Positions 6,773 to 32,712 of a stretch of DNA of 32,712 nucleotides are shown here, one piece after another. The position numbers and the translations under genes were made by a program. Position 1 is the first letter of the stretch; the number at the start of each line of letters is the position of its first letter. The DNA lies in the NCBI GenBank assembly GCA_016190895.1, contig JACPPR010000062.1:1-32712 (forward strand), in the 5' to 3' direction. This DNA comes from Chloroflexota bacterium. GTDB lineage: Bacteria; Chloroflexota; Dehalococcoidia; Dehalococcoidales; UBA2162. Below the pieces are notes generated by a model. The model ran no database searches and was not told where the DNA came from. It saw nothing but the letters and a program-made list of their open reading frames with translations.

Positions 6773-6775
6773 AAA

Positions 6776-7072
6776 GTGGCAGTTAAGAGTGAGAGTGAAC
6801 TGGGCTGGAAAGACATAGAAACCGGTTGTATTGTAACCGAGGCAGGTAGCGCTGCCCAGTATCCGACGGGCGGCTGGCGCTCACAAAAACCGGAATATGA
6901 CAACTCTAAATGCAATAAATGCGGGCTTTGCTACATTTATTGCCCTGATTGTTCTATCACCCAGCAACCTGATGGATTTTACAAAGTCGACATGTTTTAT
7001 TGCAAGGGGTGCGGCATTTGCGCCAAGGAATGCCCCAGGGATGTCATAACGATGGTACCGGAGGCAGGATAA
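6776..7072 (+). CDS. porD: Pyruvate:ferredoxin oxidoreductase, delta (ferredoxin-like) subunit
   Basis: A 98-residue protein with two [4Fe-4S] motifs, CNKCGLCYIYCPDC and CKGCGICAKECPRD, in its second half. This is the ferredoxin-like subunit that passes electrons from the TPP site to external ferredoxin. The GTG start at 6776 is preceded by AAGGAG, which overlaps the end of porG. The next gene starts directly after the stop, with no spacing, which suggests translational coupling. Confidence 0.93.
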   Translation: MAVKSESELGWKDIETGCIVTEAGSAAQYPTGGWRSQKPEYDNSKCNKCGLCYIYCPDCSITQQPDGFYKVDMFYCKGCGICAKECPRDVITMVPEAG

Positions 7073-8248: not shown

Positions 8249-9186
8249 TGACAGAAAACTATATTGCCTTCGGCAAGCGACAGGTAACCAAAGAGGAATA
8301 TTTTGCCCCTGGCCACAGGGCTTGCATCGGCTGCGCCGAAGCCCTGGCCGTCCGGCTGGCGGCCAAAGCGCTCGGACCGAATACAATTATCGTTGCTGCT
8401 ACCGGTTGTATGGAGATTGTCGCCTCTCAGATGCCCTGGACATCCTGGAGGCTGCCCTGGATTCATACCCTGTTTGAGAATACTGCCGCGGTCGCTTCCG
8501 GAATCGAATCCGGCTTGAGGACTTTAGAGAGCAAGGGCAAGAAGCCTGTAGAGGGCATTAATGTGGTCGCTACTGCCGGAGACGGCGGCACCAGCGATAT
8601 CGGACTTCAGGCTCTGTCCGGAGCTTTAGAGCGGGGACATAAATTCCTTTATATCTGCTGGGATAACGAAGCCTATATGAATACAGGTATTCAGCGGTCG
8701 TCCTCGACCCCTTACGGCGCTTCGACAACGACGGCTCCGGCCGGTAAGCAAAGCATCGGGCAAATGACCTGGAAAAAGAACCTGCCGGCTATCGTGGCTG
8801 CCCATAACATACCCTATGTGGCGACAGCCTGCCCGAGTTATCCCTTTGATTTTATGGATAAAGTAGTCAAAGGCTCGAAGGTAGACGGTCCAGCTTACAT
8901 TCACGTCTTCTCGGTATGTCCCACCGGATGGCGGTCGGCTCCGGAGATGTCTATCGAACTGGGACGCCTGGCTGTGCAGACCGGGGTATTCCCACTGTTT
9001 GAGATTGAAAACGGGAAATACAAGATAAATGTTAATACACCGAAGCGCAAGCCGGTCGCAGATTATCTCAAGATACAGGGGCGGTTCCGCCACCTGTCCG
9101 AGCAAGAGATAAAACTGATTCAGGACAGGGTGGATAAAGAATACGATGCCCTTGTTGAACGAGCCGAGAAAGACAAAGCGGCGTAG
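8248..9186 (+). CDS. porB: Pyruvate:ferredoxin oxidoreductase, beta (TPP-binding) subunit
   Basis: A 312-residue protein with the TPP/Mg motif GDGGTSDIGLQALSGALERG and a later asparagine in WDNEAYMNTG. Cysteines in CIGCAEAL and ATGCMEIV, plus a later cysteine, fit the [4Fe-4S] cluster of beta chains. With the gamma, delta and alpha chains it completes the heterotetrameric enzyme, which supplies reduced ferredoxin in anaerobes or fixes CO2 in the reverse direction. The start overlaps the porA stop (TAATG). It is the last gene of the operon; a palindromic repeat and a tRNA follow. Confidence 0.94.
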   Translation: MTENYIAFGKRQVTKEEYFAPGHRACIGCAEALAVRLAAKALGPNTIIVAATGCMEIVASQMPWTSWRLPWIHTLFENTAAVASGIESGLRTLESKGKKPVEGINVVATAGDGGTSDIGLQALSGALERGHKFLYICWDNEAYMNTGIQRSSSTPYGASTTTAPAGKQSIGQMTWKKNLPAIVAAHNIPYVATACPSYPFDFMDKVVKGSKVDGPAYIHVFSVCPTGWRSAPEMSIELGRLAVQTGVFPLFEIENGKYKINVNTPKRKPVADYLKIQGRFRHLSEQEIKLIQDRVDKEYDALVERAEKDKAA

Positions 9187-9548: not shown

Positions 9549-10289
9549 TTACTGAGGCTCGGTCTCACTCTGGGGCATGGTCGCCTTATCAGCATCCGGC
9601 CAGAAATCCTTGAAGCTGATGGGGCGGCCCGCGGGAACGACCACGAACTCGTCATCCCATAGACCTTTAGCAATCTTTTCCATAAAAGCCGTAGAGCCGT
9701 GGATTTCCTCGTAGCGCAGGTTGAGGCGGTCGGCGCGGCGGCGGGCGGTTTCTCTGTACTCATCGAGGTTGGTCTCGCTGCTGGTATTGATGAAGGCCAT
9801 CCTTTTGTAATGTTTGAGCCGATATTTCCCCGCATAGACAGCCTGCATCCGCTGGGCACGCTCTTCGCCATATCTCTCCACCATTAATTTATAGTGCGGC
9901 ATTTTGGGAGGCTCAGCGCTATCATCTATCCGTCCCTCTATCCAGCCTTTGGAAAGAAACAGCGAACCCGGATTCTCATGCTGCTCTTTAAGATAAGCCT
10001 CCCGCGAGCCGAGAAATATAGCAATACAATCATCAGCCCTGGGTACGACGAGCGTAGCTGACCTGGATTGCAAGCCGAGAACGGCCTGGCCGCACAAGCC
10101 GTAGGCCAGCACGATAGTATCGAAATCCGAAGATTTGTCTATGGCTTCTTGTAGACTAGCCTTTAATTTTTCAGGAATGCGGTGCAAACCAAAATCGAGC
10201 GTTTCGCATTCTATCTCGGCCGGCAGCTTTGAGCGGAGCTCCTCGATGACAACTGCACAGGCCAGAATCTTTATTTTCCCGTTAAGCAT
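9549..10289 (-). CDS. DUF1638 family protein
   Basis: A 246-residue cytoplasmic protein without a signal or membrane segment. KIKILACAVVIEELRSKL at the N-terminus, the central LAYGLCGQAVLGL (about 61-73) and PRADDCIAIFLGSR (about 83-96) match what I know of the DUF1638 family. Conserved cysteines at residues 11, 66 and 88 could bind a metal. The family is often encoded near corrinoid-dependent methyltransferases in anaerobes, but its function is unknown and no such gene is visible here. It appears monocistronic, with its own promoter at 10324-10353. The ribosome site before the ATG is weak. Confidence 0.75.
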   Translation of the reverse strand: MLNGKIKILACAVVIEELRSKLPAEIECETLDFGLHRIPEKLKASLQEAIDKSSDFDTIVLAYGLCGQAVLGLQSRSATLVVPRADDCIAIFLGSREAYLKEQHENPGSLFLSKGWIEGRIDDSAEPPKMPHYKLMVERYGEERAQRMQAVYAGKYRLKHYKRMAFINTSSETNLDEYRETARRRADRLNLRYEEIHGSTAFMEKIAKGLWDDEFVVVPAGRPISFKDFWPDADKATMPQSETEPQ

Positions 10290-12863: not shown

Positions 12864-14426
12864 CTAGGCCGCCATAGCCCGTTCTAAAGGCGGTCTATCT
12901 GTAGTCTTCCACAGTAATCTCGCCATCCGTTTTATATTGGAGACAGTGGCCGCCAATAAGGTGTGTATCCTAGCTCGGGATAAGCCACGGTAGCGGCACC
13001 GCCTCATACCGCACCAGCGGGCAAGGTCGGCTACCTTGTGCTCTATCTTGTAGCGGTTACGGTAGGCTTCTTTCCCTTCTTCGCTTTCCATCCTCTCTTG
13101 CATCTGGTGATAATAAGAGTGGTAATGGCTGATGTGGACTGCACGACCATGAATCTTCGAGTTGCTGTTGAAGCACTTCGGTCTAAGCTCGCAGTCTGCA
13201 CACTGGCAGCGAGAGAATTGAAAGACTATCCCGTGTCGCCGCTGGTCCTCCGTCATTACCAGGTCTCTCTTGCTGTGCGAAGTAACGCATCCGGCCGGAC
13301 AGGTAACTGTCTCGGTTGCTTCATCATACCTGAAATCCTCGACTGTAAAGAGGTCGGCGCCTCTGATGTTTATTTTCTCCGCCAGGCTGATATAACCCGT
13401 TATCTTGCCCTCGTCCAGGCGCTCGAGGTTGGCCCCGGAGCCGTAGGCTTTGTCGCCGCTGATTTCATCGGGTACCAGAGAATGGGCTTCCTCCTGTTGC
13501 TTGAGGAGAGGTCTAAGCTGGCTGCCGTCATCTCTATTGGCAGGGGTTGTCTCAACGGAAGTAATGATTTCCGATTCTTCTTCGACGATGACATGTCCCT
13601 TGTAGCCTGCCCAGCGCTTGTGGTCCTTTTTACCCATGCGGGCGTCCGGGTCGACAGGGCTGACCAACCTGTCCTTAGCTTCATCCGCTCTATCCGCCAC
13701 GGCTTTCTCCAGCAGTTCAAGGTCTTTCTGTAGTTCGGGGGTGACCCTGAGTTTCTTGTCCTTCAGTTCTCTGGCAACTCCATCCAGCAGACTTCTAGCT
13801 TCATCAATCTCTTTCTCCAAACCTTCTTCCATGCGGGTAAACCGGTCCTGCTTGACGACCTGTAAATCTTTAATGCCCAGTTTCTCCGCGAGCTTGGTAT
13901 CCTGGTTTTCTACCGTCTTAAGTACGTTACGGCGACATAATTTGATAAGACCGCTCAGGCTGGTGATGGCCATATCCGCTACGACATGCGTGGAGTCAAT
14001 AATCTGACGTTTGCCGTTGACCAATCCCTTGTCAATACATTGCCGGACGATATTCTCGAAGATTGAGCGGAACTTCTCTTCACCTAATCTCTGGGCTCTG
14101 AAGGTGCAGACGGTGGAATAGTCCGGCGGTTCTTCATCCACAGCAAGCCCGAGGAAGTACTTGTAGGCCAGGTTTATCCTGGCGTTTTCTTCGACCTGCC
14201 GGTCAGAGTCCCCGTAGATGTACTGTAGCAGGCATAGCCTCAGCATAAACTCGGGGTCTTCCGCCGGCCTGCCAAAGTCCGGGGTATATCTATCTTTGAC
14301 TAAGTCATTTACGAATGAGAAGTCCACCACCGCGTTTATCTTCCTGAGCAGATGGTCCTGGGGGACAATCCGGTCATACAGGTAGCTGCCGTAGAATGAG
14401 GATTGGGGTATCTTGGGCTTGAGCAT
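12864..14426 (-). mobile_element. IS1182-family transposase (IS element body)
   Basis: A 520-residue full-length transposase. The DUF772-type N-terminal region (about 15-125, with FGRPAEDPEFMLRLCLLQYIYGDSDRQVEE split in typical fashion) is followed by a DDE domain with Asp144 (IIDSTHV), Asp325 (SGDKAYGSG) and Glu462 (YKIEHKVADLARWCG). A cysteine cluster (Cys376, Cys380, Cys407, Cys409, Cys412, Cys418) between the second Asp and Glu fits the family's zinc-binding insert. The gene is intact and could be active. Terminal inverted repeats were not found with confidence, so only the coding part is delimited. The gene-free strip 12610-12863 between the kinase and the transposase has no gene I can support. 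Confidence 0.9.
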
Positions 14427-21290: not shown

Positions 21291-21905
21291 CTATTGTTCT
21301 GGCTCGGGTTCGAGAGAAAACGAGGCAGATGCAAGCGCTTTGGTTAAAAGATAGGCTTCCTGGAGCGCTATCGTCGGGCAGAGAGCAAAGCATTCTTTGC
21401 AGTCCCAGCATTCCTTGAGGGCTATCTCCGGAATGAACATTATCTCGCGTCTGGTTCCCCGGTCGACAAATGTGACGGCATTCTTCTTGGCTACTTCGTC
21501 ACAGTATCTGACGCACAAGCCGCAAAGAATGCAAAATGAAGGTTCTTTCTCGAAGCGGTCTGCATCGGCTCCATACTCACGGGCTAACTCCTGCAATGGT
21601 ACGGACTCCGGAGCGTGAGCCAGCATCAGTTCAAGAAGCATTTTGCGAATCTTATCTATCCTCTCGGACCTCGTTCTTACCACCAGGTTAGGGGCGACGG
21701 GGCGGGAGCAGGCAGTATCGAGACTTACCCTGCCCCTGGCTTCTATTTCCACCATACAGATTCGGCAGGCGGTGTAGGGTTTCAGCTTTTCAAAATAACA
21801 GAGTGTCGGGATATATATTCCGGCCTTTCGTGCCGCTTCGAGAACAGTCATCCCTGCCTCGGCTTTGACCTGCTTGTTATCGATAGTGAGGATAATTTCG
21901 CTCAT
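21291..21905 (-). CDS. bamI: BamI-like NuoG/HoxU-type iron-sulfur subunit
   Basis: A 204-residue protein. Residues 1-80 are a plant-type [2Fe-2S] ferredoxin domain (cysteines in LCYFEKLKPYTACRICMVEI and TACSRPV). The NuoG-type His/Cys cluster region that usually follows is reduced to AHAPESVPLQEL and has no cysteines. Two [4Fe-4S] motifs follow: CILCGLCVRYCDE and CWDCKECFALCP. It is the last gene of the cluster and matches BamI in position and build. It would link the FMN subunit to the FeS chain. The MITE-like element between it and bamH leaves only 14 bases before its ATG, which has a modest AGAGG site. Confidence 0.8.
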   Translation of the reverse strand: MSEIILTIDNKQVKAEAGMTVLEAARKAGIYIPTLCYFEKLKPYTACRICMVEIEARGRVSLDTACSRPVAPNLVVRTRSERIDKIRKMLLELMLAHAPESVPLQELAREYGADADRFEKEPSFCILCGLCVRYCDEVAKKNAVTFVDRGTRREIMFIPEIALKECWDCKECFALCPTIALQEAYLLTKALASASFSLEPEPEQ

Positions 21906-21919
21906 TGTTGTTCGCCTCT

Positions 21920-22007
21920 CTAGTGTTTTGAGTTATTAAACCATTACTAAGTTTTTTCGTCTCACCCTAACCCTCTCCCGTCGAGGGAGAGGGAACTGGA
22001 AGACTAG
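21920..22007. repeat. MITE-like element, copy 2 (internally deleted)
   Basis: It begins CTAGTGTTTTGAGTTATTAA, ends in ACTAG, and contains the same CTCACCCTAACCCTCTCCC/GGGAGAGGG core as copy 1 at 16009-16143, but it lacks about 45 internal bases. The terminal CTA at its right end is the TAG stop of bamH. Confidence 0.75.
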
Positions 22008-23695
22008 TGTGATGCTGTGGCTAATATTTTGCAGACACCCGAAGGGCAGCGCTTCTCCTTGATATGGACTTCAAGCTCATCGCGGAAATGCTTGATAGCA
22101 CTGCGCGCCGGGTTAGAGGCAGTTTGCCCCAGAGGACATAGCGCCGCTACTCTCTGGACTTCAGATATCGCTTCCAGGAGTTCGATGTCGCCCTCTTTCC
22201 CGCCTCCATCATTAATACGATTGACAATCTTGAGCATCTGCCTGATGCCATCGCGACAGGGGGTGCACTTGCCACAGGACTCATTAGACAGGAAGGTGAG
22301 GAAATATTTGACCATATCCACCATACACGTTTTCTCATCGATGACGACCAGACTGGGGCCCAGCGAGCCGCCAGCCTTGCTTATCTCATCGAAATCCACA
22401 GGCAGGTCGAGCAGACTCTCCGGGAGGAACGCGCCCAGCGGCCCGCCAACCAGGACTGCTTTGAAGTTATTATCTTCCCGGATGCCGCCACCGATATCGA
22501 AGATGACTTGTCTCAAGGTCATTCCCATCGGCACTTCGACCAAGCCGCTATTGTTGACCGTACCTACCAGAGAGAAAACCCTGGTTCCCTTGCTGCTTGC
22601 CGTGCCGATGCCGGCATACCAATCGGCGCCCTTATTAACAATCAGGGGCACACTAGCCCAGGTCTGCAGATTGTTGACACAGGTCGGTTTGTTCCACAAC
22701 CCCCTCTCCGTGGCGTGGTCATACCTCACTGTAGGCTCGCCCACCCGGCCTTCGATTGCCGCCATCAAGGCTGACATTTCGCCGCAGACATAGCCTCCGG
22801 CATCGATATTAATCTTGATGTTGAGGTCGAGGCCGGAACCAAGGATATTCTTGCCGAGAAGCCCGTATTCTTCAGCTTGTTTGATAGCTATGGCAGTGTT
22901 TTCTACAGTCAGAGGGAATTCATCACCGACAAAGATGTAGCCTTCATTGGCCCCCATAGCGTAAGCGCCTATAATCATTCCTTCCAGGATATTATGAGGA
23001 TTCGCCTCCATCATCCTTCTATCGGCAAAGGCGCCGGGGTCGCCCTCGTGACAATTGCAGATAACATACTTGGTATCACCCACGGCTACCCTGACAGCGT
23101 CCCACTTAATACTGGCAGGGAAGCCGGCACCGCTTCGCCCCCGCAGGTTAGATTTCTTGATTTCCGCAACTACCTGCTCCGGCGTCATAGTTTGCAAGAC
23201 TTTGACCAAGGCGGAATAGCCGCCCACAGCCAGATAATCTTCGATGCTCTTGGGGTCGAGCTTGCCATTATCGCCGATGGTAAGCCGCATCTGGCCTTTG
23301 TAAAACGGTATTTCGGACTCGTGGATGGCTTTTTCGCCGGTCTTCGGGTCGGTATAAACCAGGCGGTCGATGACCTTCTTGCCGACTACGGTTTCAGAGA
23401 TGATGTCAGAGGCGTCCTCAGGAGTCACCTGGACGTAGCAGATTTCCTCGGGATAGATAACCACGATAGGCCCTGCTTCGCAAAAGCCGGGGCAGCCGGT
23501 TTCTCTAATATTGACCTTCGCTTGTAAGGTTCGCTTCTTGATTTCTGCCTTGAAGGCGTCGATAATGCTCCGGTTACCGAGGGCGTGACAGCCGGTCCCG
23601 CCGCATACCGCGATGCAGGGCTTGCTGTTATCTCTTTTGGACAGGATATTCTGACGCCGTTCTTCTAATTCGGCGGGCGAGCTTATTCTTGGCAT
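22004..23695 (-). CDS. bamH: BamH-like NuoF/HndC-type NAD(H)- and FMN-binding subunit
   Basis: A 563-residue protein. A thioredoxin-like [2Fe-2S] domain (Cys31, Cys36, Cys68, Cys72) is followed by the NuoF domain with the NADH/FMN loop GRSGAGFPASIKW (about 186-198) and NCHEGDPGAFADR, an SLBB region, and the C-terminal [4Fe-4S] site (Cys474, Cys477, Cys480, Cys520). It is the NAD(H) entry or exit point of the complex. HndC-like relatives often carry two more [4Fe-4S] motifs after a C-P-x-G-V-C segment; here the chain stops twelve residues after CPSGVC begins, and the stop codon lies in a MITE-like element, so a truncation is possible. GGGAG precedes the ATG. Confidence 0.85.
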   Translation of the reverse strand: MPRISSPAELEERRQNILSKRDNSKPCIAVCGGTGCHALGNRSIIDAFKAEIKKRTLQAKVNIRETGCPGFCEAGPIVVIYPEEICYVQVTPEDASDIISETVVGKKVIDRLVYTDPKTGEKAIHESEIPFYKGQMRLTIGDNGKLDPKSIEDYLAVGGYSALVKVLQTMTPEQVVAEIKKSNLRGRSGAGFPASIKWDAVRVAVGDTKYVICNCHEGDPGAFADRRMMEANPHNILEGMIIGAYAMGANEGYIFVGDEFPLTVENTAIAIKQAEEYGLLGKNILGSGLDLNIKINIDAGGYVCGEMSALMAAIEGRVGEPTVRYDHATERGLWNKPTCVNNLQTWASVPLIVNKGADWYAGIGTASSKGTRVFSLVGTVNNSGLVEVPMGMTLRQVIFDIGGGIREDNNFKAVLVGGPLGAFLPESLLDLPVDFDEISKAGGSLGPSLVVIDEKTCMVDMVKYFLTFLSNESCGKCTPCRDGIRQMLKIVNRINDGGGKEGDIELLEAISEVQRVAALCPLGQTASNPARSAIKHFRDELEVHIKEKRCPSGVCKILATASH

Positions 23696-23708
23696 AGTTT
23701 TCTCCCAC

Positions 23709-24158
23709 TCACAGGTTTTTCAACACGTCCTCTGCCTTGACCGGCGATACCTTGCTGTGATACTTGCCGTCGACCACCATCACCGGGCCCGAAGAGCAGC
23801 AACCGAGGCAGTTAACGACTTCCAGGCTGACTTTCAAATCGGAATTCGTTTCACCGGCCTTGACCCCGGTGATGTCCTGGACCTTATCGAGCAGACGGGG
23901 GGCGCCGCGAACATGGCAGCCGGTGCCATTACAGACGTGAATTTCGTGAAGTCCTTCAGGGACGACTCTGAAGGATTTATAGAAGGTTGCCACATGCTGC
24001 ACCCGGCTCAAAGGCACGTTCAATTTCTTACTGACTTTCTCTAATACTTCTTTGGGAAGCCAATCATTTTCGTGCTGAATCTCCAGCAATACTTGTATCA
24101 GGGAACTGGCATCGCCCGCGTGCCTGTCTATAATCCGGTCTATTTTAGCGTTGTCCAT
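23709..24158 (-). CDS. bamG: BamG-like NuoE/HndA-type [2Fe-2S] subunit
   Basis: A 149-residue thioredoxin-like [2Fe-2S] protein of normal NuoE length. The helical N-terminal half (SLIQVLLEIQHENDWLPKEV) precedes the cluster motif with cysteines in VCNGTGCHVRG and VNCLGCCSSGP. It would pair with the NuoF-type subunit encoded 13 bases downstream, forming the NADH module of the complex. It starts 24 bases after the MvhD-type gene. Both HndA and NuoE proteins fit the sequence; the Bam assignment comes from gene order. Confidence 0.85.
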   Translation of the reverse strand: MDNAKIDRIIDRHAGDASSLIQVLLEIQHENDWLPKEVLEKVSKKLNVPLSRVQHVATFYKSFRVVPEGLHEIHVCNGTGCHVRGAPRLLDKVQDITGVKAGETNSDLKVSLEVVNCLGCCSSGPVMVVDGKYHSKVSPVKAEDVLKNL

Positions 24159-24182
24159 AGCCGTTTCCCACCCCTCTTTTGC

Positions 24183-24974
24183 CTAACTCAATACTTGCTC
24201 TTTGACATCCGCGAGAACAAAGCGCTTTTGCGCTTCATCGAACCTGACTATGCCTTGCCTGGCCGAGTGGTTCAGGTAGCTCGATGCCTCGGATGGGCTT
24301 ATGGCCAGAGCTTCAGAAACTTCTTCAACAGACATTGGTTTTTCCCGCAGGAGCAACATGATTTCTTCCGTTCTCAGTTTATCTGCAATCAAATCACGGA
24401 ATAGTTTCTTGAACTCATCGCCCGCGAAATACCTGTCATATTCTTCTGTCGTCTCGAAGCGGACTCTCAGTCTCTTTCTCTCCAGGATTTTAATGTAGGG
24501 AACCAAACGTGTCACTGCCTCAAGCTTGAGTTTCAACCTGTTAGCATCTATGCCTTCGCCGACTCCAAGAGGGCCTAGCTCTTTTATTTGCCCGGTGAGG
24601 TCAATCATCACCTGGGCAAAACGGTTTCCCTCGGACGCAGATACCCATTCCAGCCTTAATCTCTTGGGGTTTACCCCAACCTGCTCGAGCAGTTTCTTGG
24701 TGAGGTGCATGACGCTTAGTGCGTAGTAGTTTCCCTGCGTAATATAGTGGCAATCGCCGAGGTGACAGCCACCCATGAACACCCCGTCCACTCCGTTTGA
24801 AAAGGACCTGAGAATGAATGCCGGGTCGACCCTGCCGGAGCAGGGCACCCTTATCACCCTGATATTGGGGGGATATTGATACCGGGAAACACCAGCCAGG
24901 TCCGCCCCGGCGTAGCAACACCAGTTACACAGGAAGCCTATTATCTTCGGTTCAAAATCACGCCTAGCAACCAT
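24183..24974 (-). CDS. bamF: BamF-like MvhD/FlpD protein with C-terminal winged helix
   Basis: A 263-residue protein. The MvhD domain (about 10-125) has FLCNWCCYAGADLAG, VPCSGRVDPAF and GCHLGDCHY, with cysteines 16, 19, 20, 45, 70 and 75 in place for an FeS cluster. MvhD proteins pass electrons to HdrA, whose homologue is encoded 69 bases upstream. Residues about 198-256 form an extra helix-turn-helix-like region (MSVEEVSEALAISPSEASSYL, then a basic wing). Short MvhD proteins lack this. It may bind a partner protein rather than DNA. The gap to bamE contains a CTGAGC..GCTCAG hairpin. Confidence 0.83.
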   Translation of the reverse strand: MVARRDFEPKIIGFLCNWCCYAGADLAGVSRYQYPPNIRVIRVPCSGRVDPAFILRSFSNGVDGVFMGGCHLGDCHYITQGNYYALSVMHLTKKLLEQVGVNPKRLRLEWVSASEGNRFAQVMIDLTGQIKELGPLGVGEGIDANRLKLKLEAVTRLVPYIKILERKRLRVRFETTEEYDRYFAGDEFKKLFRDLIADKLRTEEIMLLLREKPMSVEEVSEALAISPSEASSYLNHSARQGIVRFDEAQKRFVLADVKEQVLS

Positions 24975-25008
24975 TTTTGACTCACTCTTTCCTTCGACAT
25001 AGTTTACA

Positions 25009-25031
25009 CTGAGCGAAGCGAATGTGCTCAG
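25009..25031. repeat. REP-like hairpin between bamE and bamF
   Basis: CTGAGC (25009-25014) and GCTCAG (25026-25031) are inverted arms around an 11-base loop, in a context typical of dispersed extragenic palindromes. It may tune mRNA stability inside the operon. Confidence 0.4.
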
Positions 25032-25043
25032 GACAAGTCTTAA

Positions 25044-28000
25044 TTAGCGAGTTTCTACCAACTCCGGAGCCTTCGCCGGCGCTTTCACCGCCGCATCGAT
25101 TTGGGCAAAGATTTCATCATCGGTAAAATGTTTCAAGGCAATAGCCTGTGTCGGGCACTTGGCATTACACAGGCCGCATCCCTTGCAGAGAACCGGGTTA
25201 ACCACGGCTTTCTTGCCTTTTTCTTTCTTTTGAAGCTGAACGGCGCCGTATTTGCAAACCGCTTCGCACGCTCCGCACCCGATGCACTCGCTCTCTTTAA
25301 CTTCGCAGATAGAACCCTGGGCGATGACCGACTTATTTGAAAGTATCTCGGCAGCCCGGGCGGCGGCAGCCAAAGCCTGGCTGACCGTCTCCGAGATATG
25401 CTTGGGATAGTGAGCTATTCCGCACAGGAAAACGCCGTCCCCGGCGGTATCGACAGGTCTCAATTTAACATGAGCTTCTTGCAAGAAACCATCCGGATTC
25501 AAAGGCACTTTGAAGAGCCGTGATACTTCTTTGCTCGATGCCGAGGGGATGACGGCAGCCGCCAGAGCCAGTAAATCCGCATCCAGGGCAATCTTTTTAC
25601 CCATAATGTCATCGGTGGCGGTGACCCGCAGAATACGCTTGCCGCCTTCTTCGACGACTTCCACCTGGGGCTTATCATCCGGCTCGTAGCGGATAAACTT
25701 CACTTCCTTATCCGCCGCCTCACGGTAATAATCTTCTCTGAACCCGTAGGTCCTCATATCCCGGTAGATGATGTAGACATCGGTCTGGGGGTTGATTTCT
25801 TTTAGCTTCAGGGCATTCTTGACCGCCTGGCTGCAGCACACGCGCGCGCAGTAATTTCTATCTTTTTGCCGGCAGCCGACGCACTGAATCATGACCACGC
25901 TCTGAGCGTTCGTTACCTTCTGTTCTTTTTTGGCAATTCGCTCCTCCAGCTCGAGCAGGGTCAACACCCTGTCATCCTGCCCGTAGAGGTACTCGGTGGG
26001 CTTATATTCGCTGGCGCCGGTAGCGATGATGCTGATGCCATGTTGAATCTCCCTGACCATTTCTCCGGTCTTCACTTTGGTGGTGAAATTGCCCACATAT
26101 CCGGAAGTCTCGGTGATGGTGGAATCAGTCATTTTGTGAATCAAGGGATTCTTGTAAACTTTACTGGCGATATCAGCCAGATACGCCTGAACGTCCATCC
26201 CTTCCAGCGTATACCGAAGCCTTCGGGCTATCCCGCCAAGCTCGCTGTCTTTTTCGACAAGGAAAACTTCGAATCCCTGATTGGCCAGGCTGAGGGCGCT
26301 GGTCATACCGGCCAGACCGCCCCCGACCACTAATCCTCTCTTATCGACCGGCAGCTCGAACTCCTCCAGAGGCTCTAACCGGCTAGCCCGGGCTACCGAC
26401 ATCCGGACAATATCCTTTGCCTTTTCGGTGGCGTCTTCATGCTCTGTGGAATGGACCCAGGAGCAATGCTCCCTGATATTAGCCATATCGAAGAAGTACT
26501 GGTTAATGCCGCCCTCACGGAGCGTCTCCCGGAATGTCGGCTCGTGCGTTCTGGGAGTGCAAGCGGCAACAACCACACGGTTGAGTCCCTTTTCCCTGAT
26601 ATGGTCGGCTATCTGCTGGGCATTTTCAGTAGAGCAGGCAAAGAGGCTTTGTTGAGCGTGAACAACGCCCGGTAAGGTAGAGGCATATTCGACTACCGCC
26701 GGAACATCCACCACCCTGCCGATGTTGGCGCCGCAGGCGCACACAAACACCCCTATCTTAAGCTCTTCTCCAGAGACGTCCCTCTCCAGGGGATATGCCT
26801 TTTTCCTGGCCAGCTTGCCCCGCCGGCGCGCCAGTAGTTGACCGACAAGGGCGCCGGCGCCGCTAGCTGTCATCACCGATTCGGGAATGTCTACGGGACC
26901 CTGGAAGGCGCCGCTGACAAAAACGCCCGGCCGGGAGGTCTCGATAGAGTTAACCGGACCGGTCTGGCAGAAACTATGCGAGTTGAGTTCGATGCCGAAC
27001 TTCTCAGCCAGCTCATCGACATTTTCAGGCGGGTTCAGCCCGACGGACAAGACCACCATATCGAACTCTTCTTCCTTCACTCCATCATCGGTGGTCGAGT
27101 ATTTGATGGTAACATTCTTGCTTTTCGGTAGCTCTTTGCCTACCGATACGTAGCTTCTGATAAAACGGACCCCGGGCAGGCTTTCCGTCCTCTGGTAAAA
27201 GCGCTCGAAGTCCTTACCGAAAGACCGAATATCGTTATGGAAGACAGCCGCCTCGATATCGGTGTCATGGTCTTTAGCCAGAATCACCTGCTTCTGGGTA
27301 TAGGTGCAGCAGACGGCCGAGCAATAGCTATTGCCGCCCGGGATAACCTGTCTGGAGCCGACGCACTGAATCCAGGCAATTTTCTTGGGATGTTTGCCGT
27401 CGGAAGGTCGCTTTATCTCGCCTTCGTGAGGGCCTGTCGAGCACAGCATCCGCTCGAAGTCCAGACTGGTTATTACGTTTTCGAATTTGCCGTAGCCATA
27501 ATCATTCCTCAGCCCAGGATCGAATACCTGATAGCCAGGAGCCAGGACTATCGCCCCAACTTCTATCTCTATTTTCTCCGGTTTTTGATAGAGGTCGATG
27601 GCATTTTTCTCGCAGACTCCCACGCAAATCTGGCATTTTTTATTCTGCAGGAAGAGGCATTTGTCAGGTTCGATATAAGACTTAAGCGGAGTCGCCTGCG
27701 GAAAATAGACATGGATGCATTTGCTATTGGATAATTCCTGATTGTACTTATCGGGGACTCTGACCGGGCAGTACTCGGCACAAACGCCGCAGCCCGTGCA
27801 TTTGTTCTCCAGAATGTATCGCGGCTTATTAATCAGGGTAACCTTGAAGTCTCCGGCCTCGCCTTCGACACGCTCGACTTCGGTAAGGGTCATTATCTCG
27901 ATATTGGGATGACGGCTGGCTTCATTGAATTTGGGAGACTCGATACACATCGAGCAGTCATTGGTAGGGAAGGTCTTATCGAGCTGAGCCATCTTGCCGC

Positions 28001-28160
28001 CAAGAGCCGGCGATTTTTCAATCAGATAAACCTTAAATCCCATATTGGCCATATCGAGCGAAGCCTGAATGCCGCTGATGCCTCCGCCGACTACCATCAC
28101 ATCCCCGATGTTACTCTTCACGGGATTATTACTCTGCTCTTTGATTGGTTCCTTTGCCAT
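25044..28160 (-). CDS. bamE: BamE-like double HdrA flavoprotein
   Basis: A 1038-residue protein made of two HdrA-like modules. The first has FAD site VVGGGISGIQA (about 23-33), two ferredoxin-type motifs (CTGCGVCAEYCP at about 121 and CQICVGVCEKN at about 176) and CVGSR. The second starts with KIGVFVCACGANIG (about 468), has FAD site VVGGGLAGMTSA (about 611) and CVGCR, and ends in two [4Fe-4S] motifs, CIGCGACEAVCK and CKGCGLCNAKCP. HdrA is the flavin-based electron-bifurcating centre of heterodisulfide reductases. Its length and order match BamE. It starts one base after the fdhD stop, with AAGGA in the end of fdhD. Confidence 0.9.
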   Translation of the reverse strand: MAKEPIKEQSNNPVKSNIGDVMVVGGGISGIQASLDMANMGFKVYLIEKSPALGGKMAQLDKTFPTNDCSMCIESPKFNEASRHPNIEIMTLTEVERVEGEAGDFKVTLINKPRYILENKCTGCGVCAEYCPVRVPDKYNQELSNSKCIHVYFPQATPLKSYIEPDKCLFLQNKKCQICVGVCEKNAIDLYQKPEKIEIEVGAIVLAPGYQVFDPGLRNDYGYGKFENVITSLDFERMLCSTGPHEGEIKRPSDGKHPKKIAWIQCVGSRQVIPGGNSYCSAVCCTYTQKQVILAKDHDTDIEAAVFHNDIRSFGKDFERFYQRTESLPGVRFIRSYVSVGKELPKSKNVTIKYSTTDDGVKEEEFDMVVLSVGLNPPENVDELAEKFGIELNSHSFCQTGPVNSIETSRPGVFVSGAFQGPVDIPESVMTASGAGALVGQLLARRRGKLARKKAYPLERDVSGEELKIGVFVCACGANIGRVVDVPAVVEYASTLPGVVHAQQSLFACSTENAQQIADHIREKGLNRVVVAACTPRTHEPTFRETLREGGINQYFFDMANIREHCSWVHSTEHEDATEKAKDIVRMSVARASRLEPLEEFELPVDKRGLVVGGGLAGMTSALSLANQGFEVFLVEKDSELGGIARRLRYTLEGMDVQAYLADIASKVYKNPLIHKMTDSTITETSGYVGNFTTKVKTGEMVREIQHGISIIATGASEYKPTEYLYGQDDRVLTLLELEERIAKKEQKVTNAQSVVMIQCVGCRQKDRNYCARVCCSQAVKNALKLKEINPQTDVYIIYRDMRTYGFREDYYREAADKEVKFIRYEPDDKPQVEVVEEGGKRILRVTATDDIMGKKIALDADLLALAAAVIPSASSKEVSRLFKVPLNPDGFLQEAHVKLRPVDTAGDGVFLCGIAHYPKHISETVSQALAAAARAAEILSNKSVIAQGSICEVKESECIGCGACEAVCKYGAVQLQKKEKGKKAVVNPVLCKGCGLCNAKCPTQAIALKHFTDDEIFAQIDAAVKAPAKAPELVETR

Positions 28161-28161
28161 C

Positions 28162-28956
28162 TTATCCGTCCTTACCAGTCGAGTATCCTTCAGACGCCCG
28201 GCCCAGCCGCTCCGGGTGGGAATACACCATCAGGCGACTGCCACGGGCGTAGCCAACCAGGGTAATACCTAACTCACGACCTAGCGAAACAGCCTTTGCC
28301 GTAGGTGAGGTGCGTGAAACAACTACCGGGACCCCCATCTTGGCCGCCTTACGCACCATCTCGGAGGAAAGTCGTCCCGTGCTCAACAGTATGCCGTCTT
28401 TAGTCTTTAGTCCTCGCAACAGGCATTCGCCCAGTATCTTGTCCAGAGTGTTGTGTCGCCCGATATCCTCAGCCACTACCATCAGTTTCTTAGAATCGGC
28501 CAGCGCCGAAGCATGCACGCCGCCGCTCAGCCGGTATAGCTCCTCCTGGTCTTGAAGCTGCTTCATCAGGGATAACACTTCTGTCGGTGTAACGACGAAA
28601 GCCGAGTCCACTTTCTGTCCCTGAGCGGTGAAAGTAGCGCCCCCGCCGCAGCCGGAGGTCAATGTGCGCCGGGTCGGCGCCTTGTATTCTGCGTTGTTCA
28701 GCTTGACATCAGCCAGTGAGTCATCTTCGCAGACCCGCATCGTGGCCACATCCTTCATACCGGTGATAATGCCCTCGGCGTAGAGGAAGCCGAGGACAAG
28801 CGGGGTCAGCCTGGTCGGAGTACACAGGATGGTAACCAGTTCCTGGCCGTTGATATAAATGGTCAGCTCCATCTCGCCGGGCACGTGCGCCGTGCCCCTG
28901 ACCCACCCTTCATCAGAAAAGCGGTCGACTGTAATCTCCGGCGCCATACCGTTCAT
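28162..28956 (-). CDS. fdhD: FdhD-type sulfur carrier for Mo/W cofactor enzymes
   Basis: A FdhD/NarQ family protein. Known members take sulfur from a cysteine desulfurase and pass it to the metal of bis-pterin formate dehydrogenases. The family segments LVLGFLYAEGII, TSGCGGG, FVVTPTEVLSLM, GGVHASAL, EDIGRHNTLDKI and STGRLSSEMV are present. Only the first cysteine of the usual Cys-x-x-Cys pair is kept (CGGG). The frame is open back to 29073 inside bamD; I prefer the ATG at 28956 or 28947, where family homology starts and a GGAG site is near. No formate dehydrogenase gene is visible, so it most likely serves the tungsten enzyme encoded at the head of this cluster. Confidence 0.88.
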   Translation of the reverse strand: MNGMAPEITVDRFSDEGWVRGTAHVPGEMELTIYINGQELVTILCTPTRLTPLVLGFLYAEGIITGMKDVATMRVCEDDSLADVKLNNAEYKAPTRRTLTSGCGGGATFTAQGQKVDSAFVVTPTEVLSLMKQLQDQEELYRLSGGVHASALADSKKLMVVAEDIGRHNTLDKILGECLLRGLKTKDGILLSTGRLSSEMVRKAAKMGVPVVVSRTSPTAKAVSLGRELGITLVGYARGSRLMVYSHPERLGRASEGYSTGKDG

Positions 28957-29017
28957 CTCCAGTTCACCAATCGCTTGCTCTTGTTCGCTTTCTCCATAGT
29001 TAACCTCTCTGAAGCGG

Positions 29018-30163
29018 TTAGGGCAACGCCTCCTGGATAATTTCCGTGATGTCCTTAATTTCGATAGCTTCACTATTTTGCCCGGTCAACCGGCTATCCT
29101 CGAAGTTGACGATGCAATACGGGCAGCCAGTCACCAGCGTCTCAGCCCCGGCTTCCTTGGCCTGGTCTAATCTGAGGTTCGAGAACCGTTCGTTCTTGGG
29201 CGTATCCATCCAGATTCTGCCACCGCCCCCGCCGCAGCAGAGACTATCTTTGAGCGAATCAGCCATCTCAACCAGTTTCAGACCGGGCACCTTCTTTAAG
29301 GCTTCCCGAGGTTCGTCATAGACGCCATTATGCCGCCCCAGGTAGCAAGGGTCGTGATAGGTGACTTTCTTGGCGTACTCTTTGGTCGGCTTAATCTTTC
29401 CTTTATCGATAAGCTCGAAGAGATACTGGGAGATATGGACTACCTCGAAATCTACTTTAAATTCGGTATACTCGTTCTTGAAGGTGTGGTAGCAGTGAGG
29501 GGAAGAAACCAGGATTTTCTTCACACCTTTTTCGATAAAAGTCTTGATGTTTTCCCTGGCCAGGCGTTTGAATAAAGCCTCATCGCCCGTCTTGCGGATG
29601 CTTTCGCCGCAGCAATTCTGCTCGGCGCCCAGTATCCCGAAACCTATGCCTGCCTTGTTAAGGATACCGGCTGTAGCCACGGCCACTTTCTTTAACCTGG
29701 CGTCATAGGCGGTATAGCAGCAGGGGAAATACAGAATTTCCATAGTTTCGGTAAAGGGTTTTACCCCCAGCCCCTCCGCCCAGGCTGTCCTGTTCTTTCG
29801 AGGTTCGCCCAAGGGGTTGCCTTCAGAACCGAGACTGGCGCTCACTGTGTGGATAGGAGCCGGAGAAATGCCGGCGTCCGAGGCAATTCTGCGCAAAGAG
29901 ACCCCGACTTCAATCTGCTTGACGCCTCGGGGGCACTTCGTAGGGCAGTTATTGCAGGTGGTGCAGCGCCATATCTCTTCACCGTCTATCTCCGGCAAAC
30001 CGAAGTTAGCCTGGCGGATTATGTTACGGATACTGAATTTTCTGACCCGGTTCCAGGGGCAGACGGTATCGCATAATCCGCACTGGTAGCAGTATTTGAA
30101 GGCTTCTCCACCAGCTTCTTTTATGATTCCTATTGCTTCTTTATCGGGGGCTACAATTTCCAT
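29018..30163 (-). CDS. bamD: BamD-like HdrD-type FeS protein
   Basis: A 381-residue protein. It has two N-terminal [4Fe-4S] motifs (CYQCGLCDTVCPWN at about 25 and CTTCNNCPTKCPRG at about 67), then two cysteine-rich CCG domains: PCCYTA with NCCGES, and DPCYLGRHN with LCCGGGGGR and a final CPYC. CCG domains hold the non-cubane clusters of HdrB/D. It should pass electrons between the HdrA-like subunit and BamC/BamB. It starts 33 bases after bamC, with AGGATTAGG upstream. Its 3' end lies close to the fdhD start. Confidence 0.88.
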   Translation of the reverse strand: MEIVAPDKEAIGIIKEAGGEAFKYCYQCGLCDTVCPWNRVRKFSIRNIIRQANFGLPEIDGEEIWRCTTCNNCPTKCPRGVKQIEVGVSLRRIASDAGISPAPIHTVSASLGSEGNPLGEPRKNRTAWAEGLGVKPFTETMEILYFPCCYTAYDARLKKVAVATAGILNKAGIGFGILGAEQNCCGESIRKTGDEALFKRLARENIKTFIEKGVKKILVSSPHCYHTFKNEYTEFKVDFEVVHISQYLFELIDKGKIKPTKEYAKKVTYHDPCYLGRHNGVYDEPREALKKVPGLKLVEMADSLKDSLCCGGGGGRIWMDTPKNERFSNLRLDQAKEAGAETLVTGCPYCIVNFEDSRLTGQNSEAIEIKDITEIIQEALP

Positions 30164-30196
30164 TTTTGCCTAATCCTTTTAGCTCTCCTGAGCTAT

Positions 30197-30724
30197 TTAG
30201 CCATTTTGTATCTGGCTAAGCGTCTCTTGTACCTTCTTCAAGCCGTGTTTTCTGACCAGCGTCTCTAAGGCTATCTCCGTCTCTTCAGGCTTCTCCTCTT
30301 CAGGTTCTTCCTCGACATCTCTTTCTTCGTAAGTGAGACAGCCAGGCTCGCAGACCTGAACGCACATCGGCTTCTCCAGCGGCGGCACGCTTTCACACAT
30401 ATCGCATTTTAGAGGCAGATTGGAATCAGGCTCCTTGAAAATATCCCGGGAGGGGCAGGATGCCCCGCAGAAGGTGCACAGGGTGTATTCCTTGCCGCTG
30501 ATGGTGTGGACTTGTCTGCCGTTGCATTGGGCTGGAGTGTAGTCACTGGCATATACCGGCACGTACTCATTTGCCAGTTCGTTGCGGAACACTCGAATCC
30601 GCGACCTGGCCGGATTAACAATGCTGCATTTCGGTATGGCGTGAAATGCGGAGCATGCCATCTCACAGGCCCGGCAGCCGGTGCATTTATCAGTATTGAC
30701 CTTGATTACCTTATCTTTTTTCAT
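30197..30724 (-). CDS. bamC: BamC-like [4Fe-4S] electron-transfer subunit
   Basis: A 175-residue ferredoxin of the HybA/DmsB kind. Cysteines occur in CTGCRACEMACSAFH (about 14-26), CTFCGASCPS, CDMCES and CVQVCEPGCLTYEE, enough for three [4Fe-4S] clusters. An acidic Glu-rich stretch (about 138-150) and a helical end follow. In class II benzoyl-CoA reductase BamC binds BamB and feeds it electrons. It is separated from bamB by about 148 bases of repeat DNA, longer than any other gap in the cluster. Confidence 0.85.
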   Translation of the reverse strand: MKKDKVIKVNTDKCTGCRACEMACSAFHAIPKCSIVNPARSRIRVFRNELANEYVPVYASDYTPAQCNGRQVHTISGKEYTLCTFCGASCPSRDIFKEPDSNLPLKCDMCESVPPLEKPMCVQVCEPGCLTYEERDVEEEPEEEKPEETEIALETLVRKHGLKKVQETLSQIQNG

Positions 30725-30747
30725 CTGTGACCCGCCCTTCGTTCATC

Positions 30748-30865
30748 ACTACCCTCTCTCCCTTGAGGGGAGAGGGCTGGGGTGAGGGTGACTTTTTAGA
30801 TGTACCCCTCACCTTAATTCCTGAATCAAGTTCAGGACAGGCTCTCTCCCGCAATGGGAGAGGAA
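30748..30865. repeat. Repeat-rich spacer between bamB and bamC
   Basis: The segment 30748-30792 is an inverted-orientation copy of the CTCACCC..CCCTCTCCC/GGGAGAGG core found in the elements at 16009 and 21920. A second hairpin pair (CTCTCCC..GGGAGAG, about 30842-30864) and CCTGAA..TTCAGG (about 30823-30839) follow. No gene fits in the gap. Confidence 0.65.
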
Positions 30866-30872
30866 ATATGCA

Positions 30873-32712
30873 CTATCCTTTTGCTGCTCCGGCCGAGACC
30901 GTTTGAGCCGGGGCGACCTCGCCATCGGTCAGAATGCCCCTCTTTTCAAAGTCTTTTCTGACGTAATCCAGACCGAGCTTGTCCAGAGTCTCCGCCGTGG
31001 GAATGCCTTCTTCGTTCCATCCCCTGTAGGCGTAGTAATCGCTGAGCAGCTTCTGTTCCCATTCTTCGTTTCTAGGCTTGCCATCCACGCCTACTGCCCA
31101 GTGGTCTTCCGGCGGCCTCTCGTCCTTTCTCCTCATGCCTCTCCTTACGTTGAGAGCCCTGACGAGATTCCGGTTCCTTTGCCCGATTTCCCAGAGCTTG
31201 GCTTCATCAAGCCCAATTCCGGTCGCCAGAGAGATTATCTCCGGTTCATTGTGAATGTGATAGGCGACCTTGCCGCCGAACTGGCCCCTGAAGGATGAGA
31301 GGAAGGCGCACAGCCCGGTGGCGTCGTCTATATAATGCATCATCTCATCCCATTCGGTAATGGCGCAAGCAGCTTCATTGGATAGCAGCTCGCGTTTCTT
31401 CCATTCCAGGAAAATCTTCTTGAATTTTTCGTCGGGAACGGCAGTCCATTCTTTCACAAAGGCCTCTCTTTCCTCCACGGTGGGGAATGGGTCCTGCGGG
31501 AAGGAGCCTTCGATTTGGGTAATTGCCATCTTCTCTCCGGTGGCTATCATCAGGAAATACCGGGGGTTCACTTTGCCCAGCTTGATGGGAAGCTGTTCGA
31601 ATTTCTTGGTGGTATTGTGGTCGAATTTCTCAGCGCCCTTGCCAATCTGGCGGGCGGCTGCGTAAACGCCATTAGCTAATATGTCGCCGATGCCTTCCCG
31701 GCGAACTATCTTATCGAGCAGATAATGAAACCTGCCCCTGATGTCGGACGGCATTCCCGGGAAGTCTTTATCGGTCAAGATGCCGGCTTCGAGAAGCTCA
31801 AGGGCGAAGGCGATAATCTGAGGAGTTGAGTAGGCATCCACTCCGTATTCCTGAGCGATAGGCAGTATTTCATAGCTGAAATCCAGTTCTTGAAAGGCCG
31901 CCATGTGGAAGGTGTCCTTGGCGTAGCATTTATAGGAGAATCTCTTACCTCCCGGCATAGTAATCACATTATGGCATTGTTTGGGACAGTTGAAGCAACC
32001 CGTTTGCCGGTCCAGGTAGTCGTACTTCAGCTTTCTCCAGCGCTCTTCGAGTTCTTTGTTCCAGTAACCCTTTTGACGCTTACGCGCATTGCCCCAGGCA
32101 AAGTTGTCGTGGTGGAAAGAGTCATCCTCGTCGGATGCCATCCAATCCCCGAGCTGTTCACGGTGCTTGGCCATTTGTACGTATTCAGGGGAATGCCCTC
32201 TTTCCCTGGCCAGCGCCTCGTTTTCTTCGTGCCTTGCCATAATCGTTTTTCTCGCATCCATACTCATCTCAAAAAGCTCAGCGGGTTTGGCGACATAGAC
32301 GTCCTTCGTCCCGCGAATGGCAATCGCCTTTAGCCTCTTATCTCCCATAATCGCGCCAATGCCGCCCCGAGCGGCGCTGGCATCGCTATGGTCTATAGAA
32401 GCAGTATAAACCCTGTTTTCACCGGCCAGACCGATGGCGGCTACCTGGGCTTTCTCCTGACCCAATTCTGCTCTGATAAGGTCGGCAGTTTCCCGGGTGC
32501 CTTTGCCGGCAAGATACCTGGCGTCACGTATTTCCACTTTGTCATTGAATATCCAGAGGTAGACCAGGTGTGGGGACTTGCCTCGAATGATGATTTTGTC
32601 ATAGCCGGCGAATTTCATCTCGGGGCCGAAGTAGCTGCCCATCAGGGAATGCGCCATCAAGTTTGTCTGAGGGGAGAAGGTGTTAATCGCGGTGCGGGTG
32701 GCGCCCGGCACC
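30873..32712 (-). CDS. bamB: BamB-like tungsten aldehyde-ferredoxin-oxidoreductase-family catalytic subunit, partial
   Basis: The frame runs off the right edge, so roughly the first 50 residues are missing; 613 codons are visible. It belongs to the AOR family, which binds a tungsten bis-pterin and one [4Fe-4S] cluster; CFNCPKQCH with a later cysteine in DATGLCAFLS fits the cluster. RGGIGAIMGDKRLKAI, YGVDAYSTPQIIAFALELLE, EGIGDILANG, QIEGSFPQDPFP, DEMMHYIDDATG and NVRRGMRR resemble BamB as I remember it rather than aldehyde-oxidising AORs. BamB reduces benzoyl-CoA to the 1,5-dienoyl-CoA. It heads a nine-gene cluster on the minus strand; its promoter is outside the window. Confidence 0.87.
   Translation of the reverse strand, partial: VPGATRTAINTFSPQTNLMAHSLMGSYFGPEMKFAGYDKIIIRGKSPHLVYLWIFNDKVEIRDARYLAGKGTRETADLIRAELGQEKAQVAAIGLAGENRVYTASIDHSDASAARGGIGAIMGDKRLKAIAIRGTKDVYVAKPAELFEMSMDARKTIMARHEENEALARERGHSPEYVQMAKHREQLGDWMASDEDDSFHHDNFAWGNARKRQKGYWNKELEERWRKLKYDYLDRQTGCFNCPKQCHNVITMPGGKRFSYKCYAKDTFHMAAFQELDFSYEILPIAQEYGVDAYSTPQIIAFALELLEAGILTDKDFPGMPSDIRGRFHYLLDKIVRREGIGDILANGVYAAARQIGKGAEKFDHNTTKKFEQLPIKLGKVNPRYFLMIATGEKMAITQIEGSFPQDPFPTVEEREAFVKEWTAVPDEKFKKIFLEWKKRELLSNEAACAITEWDEMMHYIDDATGLCAFLSSFRGQFGGKVAYHIHNEPEIISLATGIGLDEAKLWEIGQRNRNLVRALNVRRGMRRKDERPPEDHWAVGVDGKPRNEEWEQKLLSDYYAYRGWNEEGIPTAETLDKLGLDYVRKDFEKRGILTDGEVAPAQTVSAGAAKG

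Follow-up and report, generated by a model that had tools for sequence, protein, structure and literature searches.

Few reactions of anaerobic metabolism are as demanding as the ATP-independent reduction of a benzene ring at about −620 mV, and the closest described system to the one presented here is the BamBCDEFGHI complex of Geobacter metallireducens, a class II benzoyl-CoA reductase in which the proton relay of the tungsten subunit BamB is known from its structure (4z3w). Here, we describe an operon with the same eight subunit types and gene order on a stretch of 32,712 nucleotides (the window), which is the whole of contig C43 (positions 1–32712) of a 2.09-Mb draft genome of the Dehalococcoidales (G000; 96 contigs, 79% complete). 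Its bamB–I homologues (n = 8) lie on the minus strand at 21291–32711 in the order B, C, D, E, F, G, H, I. Judged from sequence, they form a real operon of the class II benzoyl-CoA reductase type whose catalytic subunit belongs to a paralogous clade and whose predicted substrate is benzoyl-CoA or a relative. We consider it likely that the operon encodes a second ATP-independent, tungsten-dependent and electron-bifurcating class II-type aromatic acyl-CoA reductase, acting on benzoyl-CoA or a substituted relative of it. It shares Cys322, His260 and the AOR fold with the Geobacter enzyme and differs from it by its separate clade, by the exchanges Glu251 to Trp, Glu257 to Asp, Leu326 to Asp and Thr329 to His, by an inserted fdhD gene and by the presence of an additional, canonical BamB in the same genome.

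Statements on published work refer, here and below, to the available portions of the cited papers. Genomes with more than one BamB and bam clusters that include FdhD have both been published already. A BamB paralogue of G. metallireducens with 66% identity is induced by benzoate, further paralogues are reported for Geobacter FRC-32 (both PMC1924859) and G. bemidjiensis (PMC2996986), and bamB copies number six in D. gibsoniae (PMC4148979) and two in D. multivorans (PMC5109826). Like the window's genome, G. metallireducens with Gmet_1802 and Geobacter FRC-32 with a second cluster that holds two bamB homologues have a second BamB beside a canonical one (PMC1924859), a likeness of gene complement. 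A similar tandem in Geobacter argillaceus falls into a different group (II_other, see below), and one of the pair lacks the tungsten-ligating cysteine. In the desulfobacterotal ORM2a ("Candidatus Anaerobenzenivorax"), FdhD is listed between BamD and BamE among proteins mapped to one cluster, was detected by proteomics and is termed a chaperone (PMC13101534); the likeness to the window lies in this placement of FdhD. The WOR clades 62 and 63 both hold benzoyl-CoA reductase-type enzymes, and clade 63 may or may not correspond to the window's clade (PMC13328260). For marine Chloroflexi of the same phylum, benzoyl-CoA reduction has been proposed through class I enzymes of the bzd type, which are unrelated and ATP-dependent (PMC5736913), so that the window would add a ring reductase independent of ATP to Dehalococcoidia-type Chloroflexota, for which class I enzymes have been described; related loci would likewise add one to metagenome-assembled genomes titled Betaproteobacteria. 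Literature searches on benzoyl-CoA reductase with Chloroflexota and tungsten, and on class II benzoyl-CoA reductase with Sterolibacterium, gave no match. We found no description of a Glu251-lacking clade or an altered relay in the portions of the papers examined, and do not claim that none exists.

Clade and active site of the window's BamB

The catalytic subunit (30873–32711, minus strand) has lost its N-terminus at the contig end: as the window is an entire contig, bamB is 5′-truncated, with about 71 N-terminal residues absent relative to 4z3w (residue 3 aligns with chain residue 74). A search of the genome for a contig overlapping this end matched only the window itself and a paralogue on contig C24. 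The remaining protein is about 56% identical to G. metallireducens BamB, which is its closest solved structure by sequence (4z3w, phmmer E 2.1e-199; next 1aor, 8e-49) and also comes first in a Foldseek search with its AlphaFold model (9e-50, TMq 0.83; 1aor 2.5e-24), the mean predicted local distance difference test (pLDDT) of the model being 76. The sole NCBIfam match, to the AOR model PRK09849, reaches 188 bits against a cut-off of 868. The tungsten-ligating Cys322 is kept (Cys262 of the window), as it is in 25/25 sequences of the variant clade. A review defines aldehyde AORs by a tungsten without protein ligand and reports the ligating cysteine for the BamB and YdhV clades only (PMC12096430); the window's protein shows neither the ligand-free site nor a grouping with aldehyde AORs. 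The subunit is thus of the benzoyl-CoA reductase type, closer to BamB than to aldehyde AORs.

Homologues of BamB were gathered from the best 80 of at least 554 confirmed loci, from relatives and from the genomes behind the loci. Exact duplicates were dropped, as were five aldehyde-type AORs and seven contained sequences (157 to 145 rows), and five further rows of fewer than 450 residues were removed (145 to 140) before tree building and residue counts; the rows are not independent, several genomes contributing more than one. Groups were named by loop motif (canonical; II_core, with the window; II_other), and the trees were therefore built without the active-site loop. The larger tree holds 95 of the 140 rows, with only canonical rows thinned and three AOR-family proteins of the window's genome as outgroup. 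It recovers a canonical clade of 48 rows (Shimodaira–Hasegawa-like approximate likelihood ratio test, SH-aLRT, 99) that includes 4z3w and the C24 copy and excludes the window, and a II_core clade of 24 rows around the window (SH-aLRT 99; 62 for 25 rows with L051). The 19 II_other rows are not a single clade (2 changes), 18 of them falling into one. In a tree of 42 rows from which the tungsten-cysteine segment had been removed as well, support is 99/99 for the canonical group (15 rows) and 86/86 for the window's group (15 rows). The split into canonical and variant forms hence does not rest on the loop, and the window's BamB, which does not branch inside the 4z3w clade, is by its sequence a paralogue and not an orthologue of the characterised BamB. 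The II_core clade occurs in Chloroflexota, Bacillota, Pseudomonadota and records titled Deltaproteobacteria, and we know of no biochemically characterised member. Within the window's class, BamB-type matches at E 1e-100 are rare (13/393 genomes drawn).

Cys322 of BamB is described as the tungsten ligand and Glu251, His255, Glu257 and His260 as invariant residues of the zinc/proton-relay site, with His260 and Glu251 adjoining the ring and Glu251 an invariant, potentially proton-donating residue of the pocket (PMC12096430). Aligned to 4z3w numbering, the proton-relay loop of the window (protein residues 185–201, EQLGDWMASDEDDSFHH; 32109–32159, minus strand) reads GDWMASDEDDSFHH where Geobacter has GSPQEMKVHDEKWHT, and the four relay positions are occupied by Trp (Trp190), Glu, Asp (Asp197) and His (His200). 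In the tungsten-cysteine segment (residues 258–275; 31887–31940, minus strand), Cys262 corresponds to Cys322, Asp266 to Leu326 and His269 to Thr329. Counted over canonical rows (n = 93), the window's group (n = 25) and the others (n = 19), position 322 is Cys in 93, 25 and 15 rows and position 260 is His in 93, 25 and 18, respectively. Glu251 is present in all canonical rows, in none of the window's group (Trp in 23/25) and in none of the 19 others as read off their loops; position 257 is Glu in 93/93 canonical rows, Asp in 25/25 of the window's group and variable among the remaining 19. His255, being His in just 49/93 canonical rows, is not invariant in this wider sample. Position 326 is Leu in 93/93 canonical rows and Asp in 24/25 of the window's group, and position 329 is mostly Thr in the former (76/93) and His in 25/25 of the latter. 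One place ahead of the lost Glu251, an Asp is kept in all 25 rows of the window's group and may take over its part. Of the positions conserved in the canonical rows (n = 294), the window's group is fixed for another residue at 16; the relay loop accounts for 6 of these 16 and for 11 of the 294 (P about 4e-6, a descriptive figure because the groups were named by the same loop) and the tungsten-cysteine segment for 3 and 13 (P about 0.03). A naturally occurring clade in which the tungsten cysteine and His260 persist and Glu251 is gone offers a test of which residues are indispensable and of whether enzymes of this family act on more than a single substrate. As a separate observation, the cysteine is replaced by Asn or Ser in Geobacter-type BamB homologues at L059:7770–9743, L058:2464–4479, L075:7705–9756 and L212:2–1789, each adjoining a BamB homologue that keeps it.

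An earlier note on this DNA, written from the letters alone, had identified a class II benzoyl-CoA reductase and proposed a tree and an active-site comparison with the BamB structure, adding that grouping with aldehyde-oxidising AORs, or with an uncharacterised clade lacking the benzoyl-CoA-binding residues, would speak against it. The complex type stands on sequence, fold and tree, the protein does not group with aldehyde-oxidising AORs, and Cys322 and His260 are kept. The identification needs narrowing all the same, as the protein is no orthologue of the characterised BamB and lies outside the 4z3w clade, with Glu251 changed to Trp and Glu257 to Asp, which partly matches the second of the two outcomes.

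Pathway context and candidate substrates

The earlier note reported no bamA, bamR, bamQ or benzoate-CoA ligase in the window; two genes of the benzoyl-CoA pathway were found on other contigs of the genome. Had is encoded on contig C36 (462 bits, cut-off 339), and Oah is split between C36 and C20, whose ends share exactly 141 bases; read across this junction, it reaches 527 bits (cut-off 464), so that the Had and Oah context of the class II pathway is present with Oah joined over two contigs. For Dch, no TIGR03189 match at E 1e-50 was found in this 79% complete genome or in six relatives searched; the best match in the genome to the Dch-like protein of relative G002 is 38% identical, and only weak enoyl-CoA hydratases were seen. 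The class I gene bzdO had no match in the genome. A second, canonical BamB, 60% identical to that of the window, is encoded on contig C24.

The variant was found 25 times in 23 genomes (G000, G002, G004, G016, G061–G077, G080, G085). By hand tally, a canonical BamB accompanies the variant in 20 of these (partial in G065 and G069); the other three are G016, G063 and G075, and contigs L038 (G063) and L050 (G075) start within the bam set. Had exceeds its cut-off in 17/23 genomes and Oah, with the joined copy counted, in 15/23. In the remaining eight, Oah matches are long but below the threshold in two (G073 and G076) and only short in six (G004, G064, G067, G069, G074 and G085). bzdO exceeds its cut-off in two of the 23 (G066, G070).

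By analogy with the Geobacter complex, the predicted enzyme would work as follows. BamB2/BamC2 would carry the tungsten-bis-metallopterin site; electrons from ferredoxin would enter the Hdr-like D-E-F part, where flavin bifurcation would split them, the high-potential electron passing to NAD+ via G-H-I and the low-potential one to the tungsten site via BamC. Two low-potential electrons and protons would then dearomatise the ring of the aromatic acyl-CoA, and the same analogy would have to carry the direction of the reaction and anything kinetic. On the substrate side, the proton relay would be rebuilt, with Glu251 lost, the Asp one place earlier, Glu257 exchanged for Asp and His260 kept, and with Asp326 and His329 added near the tungsten-ligating cysteine. 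The subunit probably serves beside the canonical BamB as a second catalytic module, which would act either on benzoyl-CoA under different conditions or on a substituted form of it.

The former could well be true, though we stop short of expecting it: the variant would be an ordinary second isoenzyme with the same substrate and reaction, and its loop changes would be neutral or tune redox properties or regulation. This fits genome G016 (listed as 90% complete), in which the variant is the only BamB match, bzdO has no match, and Had and Oah over their cut-offs are clustered with a Dch-like hydratase elsewhere in the genome on contig C10 (the hydratase shares 70% identity with its Dch-like counterpart in G002, whose own label comes from gene position alone). 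The Asp conserved before the lost Glu251 (25/25) could supply the carboxylate, and the benzoate-induced bamB paralogue of G. metallireducens (PMC1924859) is consistent with an isoenzyme. It sits less well with the retention of canonical BamB in 20/23 variant genomes, with the descriptive count of 6/16 clade-fixed changes in a loop of 11/294 conserved positions, and with Asp326 and His329, which bring charge near the tungsten site. The same co-occurrence and the fixed polar substitutions in the pocket region point instead to a reductase that supplies the same pathway from a different aromatic acyl-CoA, such as benzoyl-CoA with a hydroxy or other substituent, which we put forward as a tentative possibility. 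Variant BC pairs adjoin other bam genes in Betaproteobacteria-titled loci, as expected of alternative catalytic modules, and the study of D. gibsoniae, which has six bamB copies, did not assign any particular one to 3-OH-benzoyl-CoA (PMC4148979). However, none of the neighbouring genes examined names a substrate, and G016 lacks any other BamB match. Taken further, the clade would be a functionally distinct second tungsten ring reductase of several phyla, usually accompanied by canonical BamB, with a different mode of proton delivery (without Glu251, with Asp326 and His329), an acyl-CoA substrate other than benzoyl-CoA, BC modules that are exchangeable on one D–I engine, and a dedicated FdhD maturase; we regard this full combination as rather doubtful.

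It is unlikely that the complex reduces a cyclic or enoyl-CoA that is non-aromatic and of low potential, or that it runs in reverse as a dienoyl-CoA oxidase. Such an activity could account for the eight of 23 variant genomes without Oah over the cut-off, six of them with short matches only, but these are many-contig drafts, several with a known or likely gap, and Had exceeds its cut-off in 17/23. An AOR-type aldehyde or carboxylate oxidoreductase coupled to the Hdr/Nuo bifurcation module, as the AOR fold and known bifurcating aldehyde enzymes (PMC13328260) might suggest, is very improbable and was rejected because 4z3w ranks far above 1aor by sequence and fold, the tree groups the protein with BamB, and the tungsten-ligating cysteine reported for BamB and YdhV clades only (PMC12096430) is kept.

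Several points weigh against our reading of the operon as a second aromatic acyl-CoA reductase. Glu251 is missing from the variant though it is called invariant (PMC12096430), the tungsten-ligating cysteine is also common to the YdhV clade, and our tree held no YdhV sequence. The first approximately 71 residues of the window's BamB are unreadable, and so is the relay geometry in the AlphaFold model, which was set aside for this purpose as too uncertain (pLDDT below 50 at residues 180–193), so that a replacement of Glu251 by the neighbouring Asp cannot be judged from it. The window's genome, itself only 79% complete, yielded no Dch, and eight of 23 genomes lack Oah over the cut-off, so that in the assemblies examined the variant does not strictly co-occur with the known downstream pathway. 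Finally, the variant BC pair of G002 (L159) is followed, as judged by eye, by an Hdr-like set and not by the window's D–I order.

Gene set, fdhD and neighbouring loci

Nine minus-strand genes run consecutively from the contig end: bamB, C, D, fdhD, E, F, G, H and I. Their family matches (AFOR_N/AFOR_C, Fe-S, CCG/HdrD-like, HdrA with two nucleotide-binding modules, FlpD/MvhD, NuoE, NuoF and NuoG-like) bear out the eight bam-type genes on one strand that the earlier note had seen, and its placement in Chloroflexota also holds, Dehalococcoidales being an order of this phylum. Its "complete" cluster is so in subunit types and not in length, given the truncated bamB, and its "exactly" bam order is right from B to I yet overlooked the fdhD gene that splits bamD from bamE. 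With BamC–I all present on one strand in bam order around this insertion, the locus belongs to the class II benzoyl-CoA reductases in the broad sense.

All on the minus strand, the BamC-type [4Fe-4S] protein (30197–30724) is recognised by family matches and by the BamC homologue directly following BamB in many of the loci examined, and the BamD-type HdrD/HdrBC-like protein (29018–30163) by its CCG domains (E 7e-39). The BamE-type double-HdrA flavin protein of 1038 residues (25044–28160) matches the HdrA2 model at E 1e-294 with 980 bits, under the model's cut-off of 1100, and its nucleotide-binding matches begin near residues 20 and 610. The BamF-type MvhD protein (24183–24974; FlpD E 2e-52) ends in a helix-turn-helix-like stretch with weak matches at residues about 195–245. 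It is followed by BamG-type NuoE (23709–24158; 2Fe-2S_thioredx E 5.5e-47), BamH-type NuoF with an FMN/NADH-site domain and an N-terminal 2Fe-2S thioredoxin-like part (22004–23695; TIGR01959 E 6e-132, Complex1_51K) and the BamI-type NuoG-like ferredoxin (21291–21905; Fer2_4, Fer4_7).

The fdhD gene between bamD and bamE (28162–29073, minus strand, start probably near 28956) encodes an FdhD sulfurtransferase (FdhD-NarQ E 3.2e-76, 257 bits against a cut-off of 27) whose motif TSGCGGG retains one Cys. An fdhD match occupies this position in 6/51 bamD–bamE junctions, duplicates included (the window, L048, L052, L221, L104 and L100), that of L052 being weak (81 residues) in a gene that looks broken; in L065, fdhD follows bamD at a contig end. 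We call eight FdhDs bam-linked, namely those of the window, L048, L221, L104, L100 and L065 plus those of L227 and L238, found immediately after a BamB gene. They share 57–85% identity among themselves and 20–42% with nine other FdhDs from the loci, and group with support of 87/82; the grouping is not purely positional, since some of the nine others (e.g., L091, L110 and L114) also adjoin bam genes. As bam-linked FdhDs accompany canonical, variant and other BamB forms, FdhD is no marker of the variant; it probably matures the cofactor.

On C24, the canonical BamB adjoins bamC, bamE and bamF homologues (L024:2032–8683) and a PaaX-like regulator (L024:8726–9592; 219 bits, under the cut-off of 264.55), without adjoining D, G, H or I, which this locus may borrow from the window's operon. 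A PaaX-like gene also lies beside or near the variant operon in three relatives by eye (L159, L160 and L161), of which that of L160 scored 236 bits when scanned, again under the cut-off. In several loci titled Betaproteobacteria or Burkholderiales, a variant BamB (BC pair) adjoins other bam genes, and in L040, L044, L046 and L067, a canonical BamB stands next to a variant one. Class II-type genes in these four and in other loci of metagenome-assembled genomes titled Betaproteobacteria, Burkholderiales, Sterolibacterium and Ramlibacter contrast with literature that links class II enzymes to strict anaerobes. Fdh-like proteins of the dimethyl sulfoxide reductase family lie near variant bam operons or Had-Oah (L161:9853–12000, L052:811–2874), with similar ones judged by eye in L163 (12162–14279) and L039; considered as a substrate clue, those of L161 and L052 reached the cut-off of none of the 25 NCBI models shown and therefore name no substrate.

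Elsewhere in the window, a four-subunit 2-oxoacid (pyruvate-type) ferredoxin oxidoreductase at 6203–9186 is a possible source of reduced ferredoxin; the label phenylglyoxylate dehydrogenase was not adopted for it because PorB passes its cut-off and the PadE, PadF, PadG and PadI models stay far under theirs. A search for plasmids gave no match. A DUF1638 protein, of a family without known function, is encoded at 9549–10289, and a transposase-like open reading frame, judged by eye, lies at 12864–14426.

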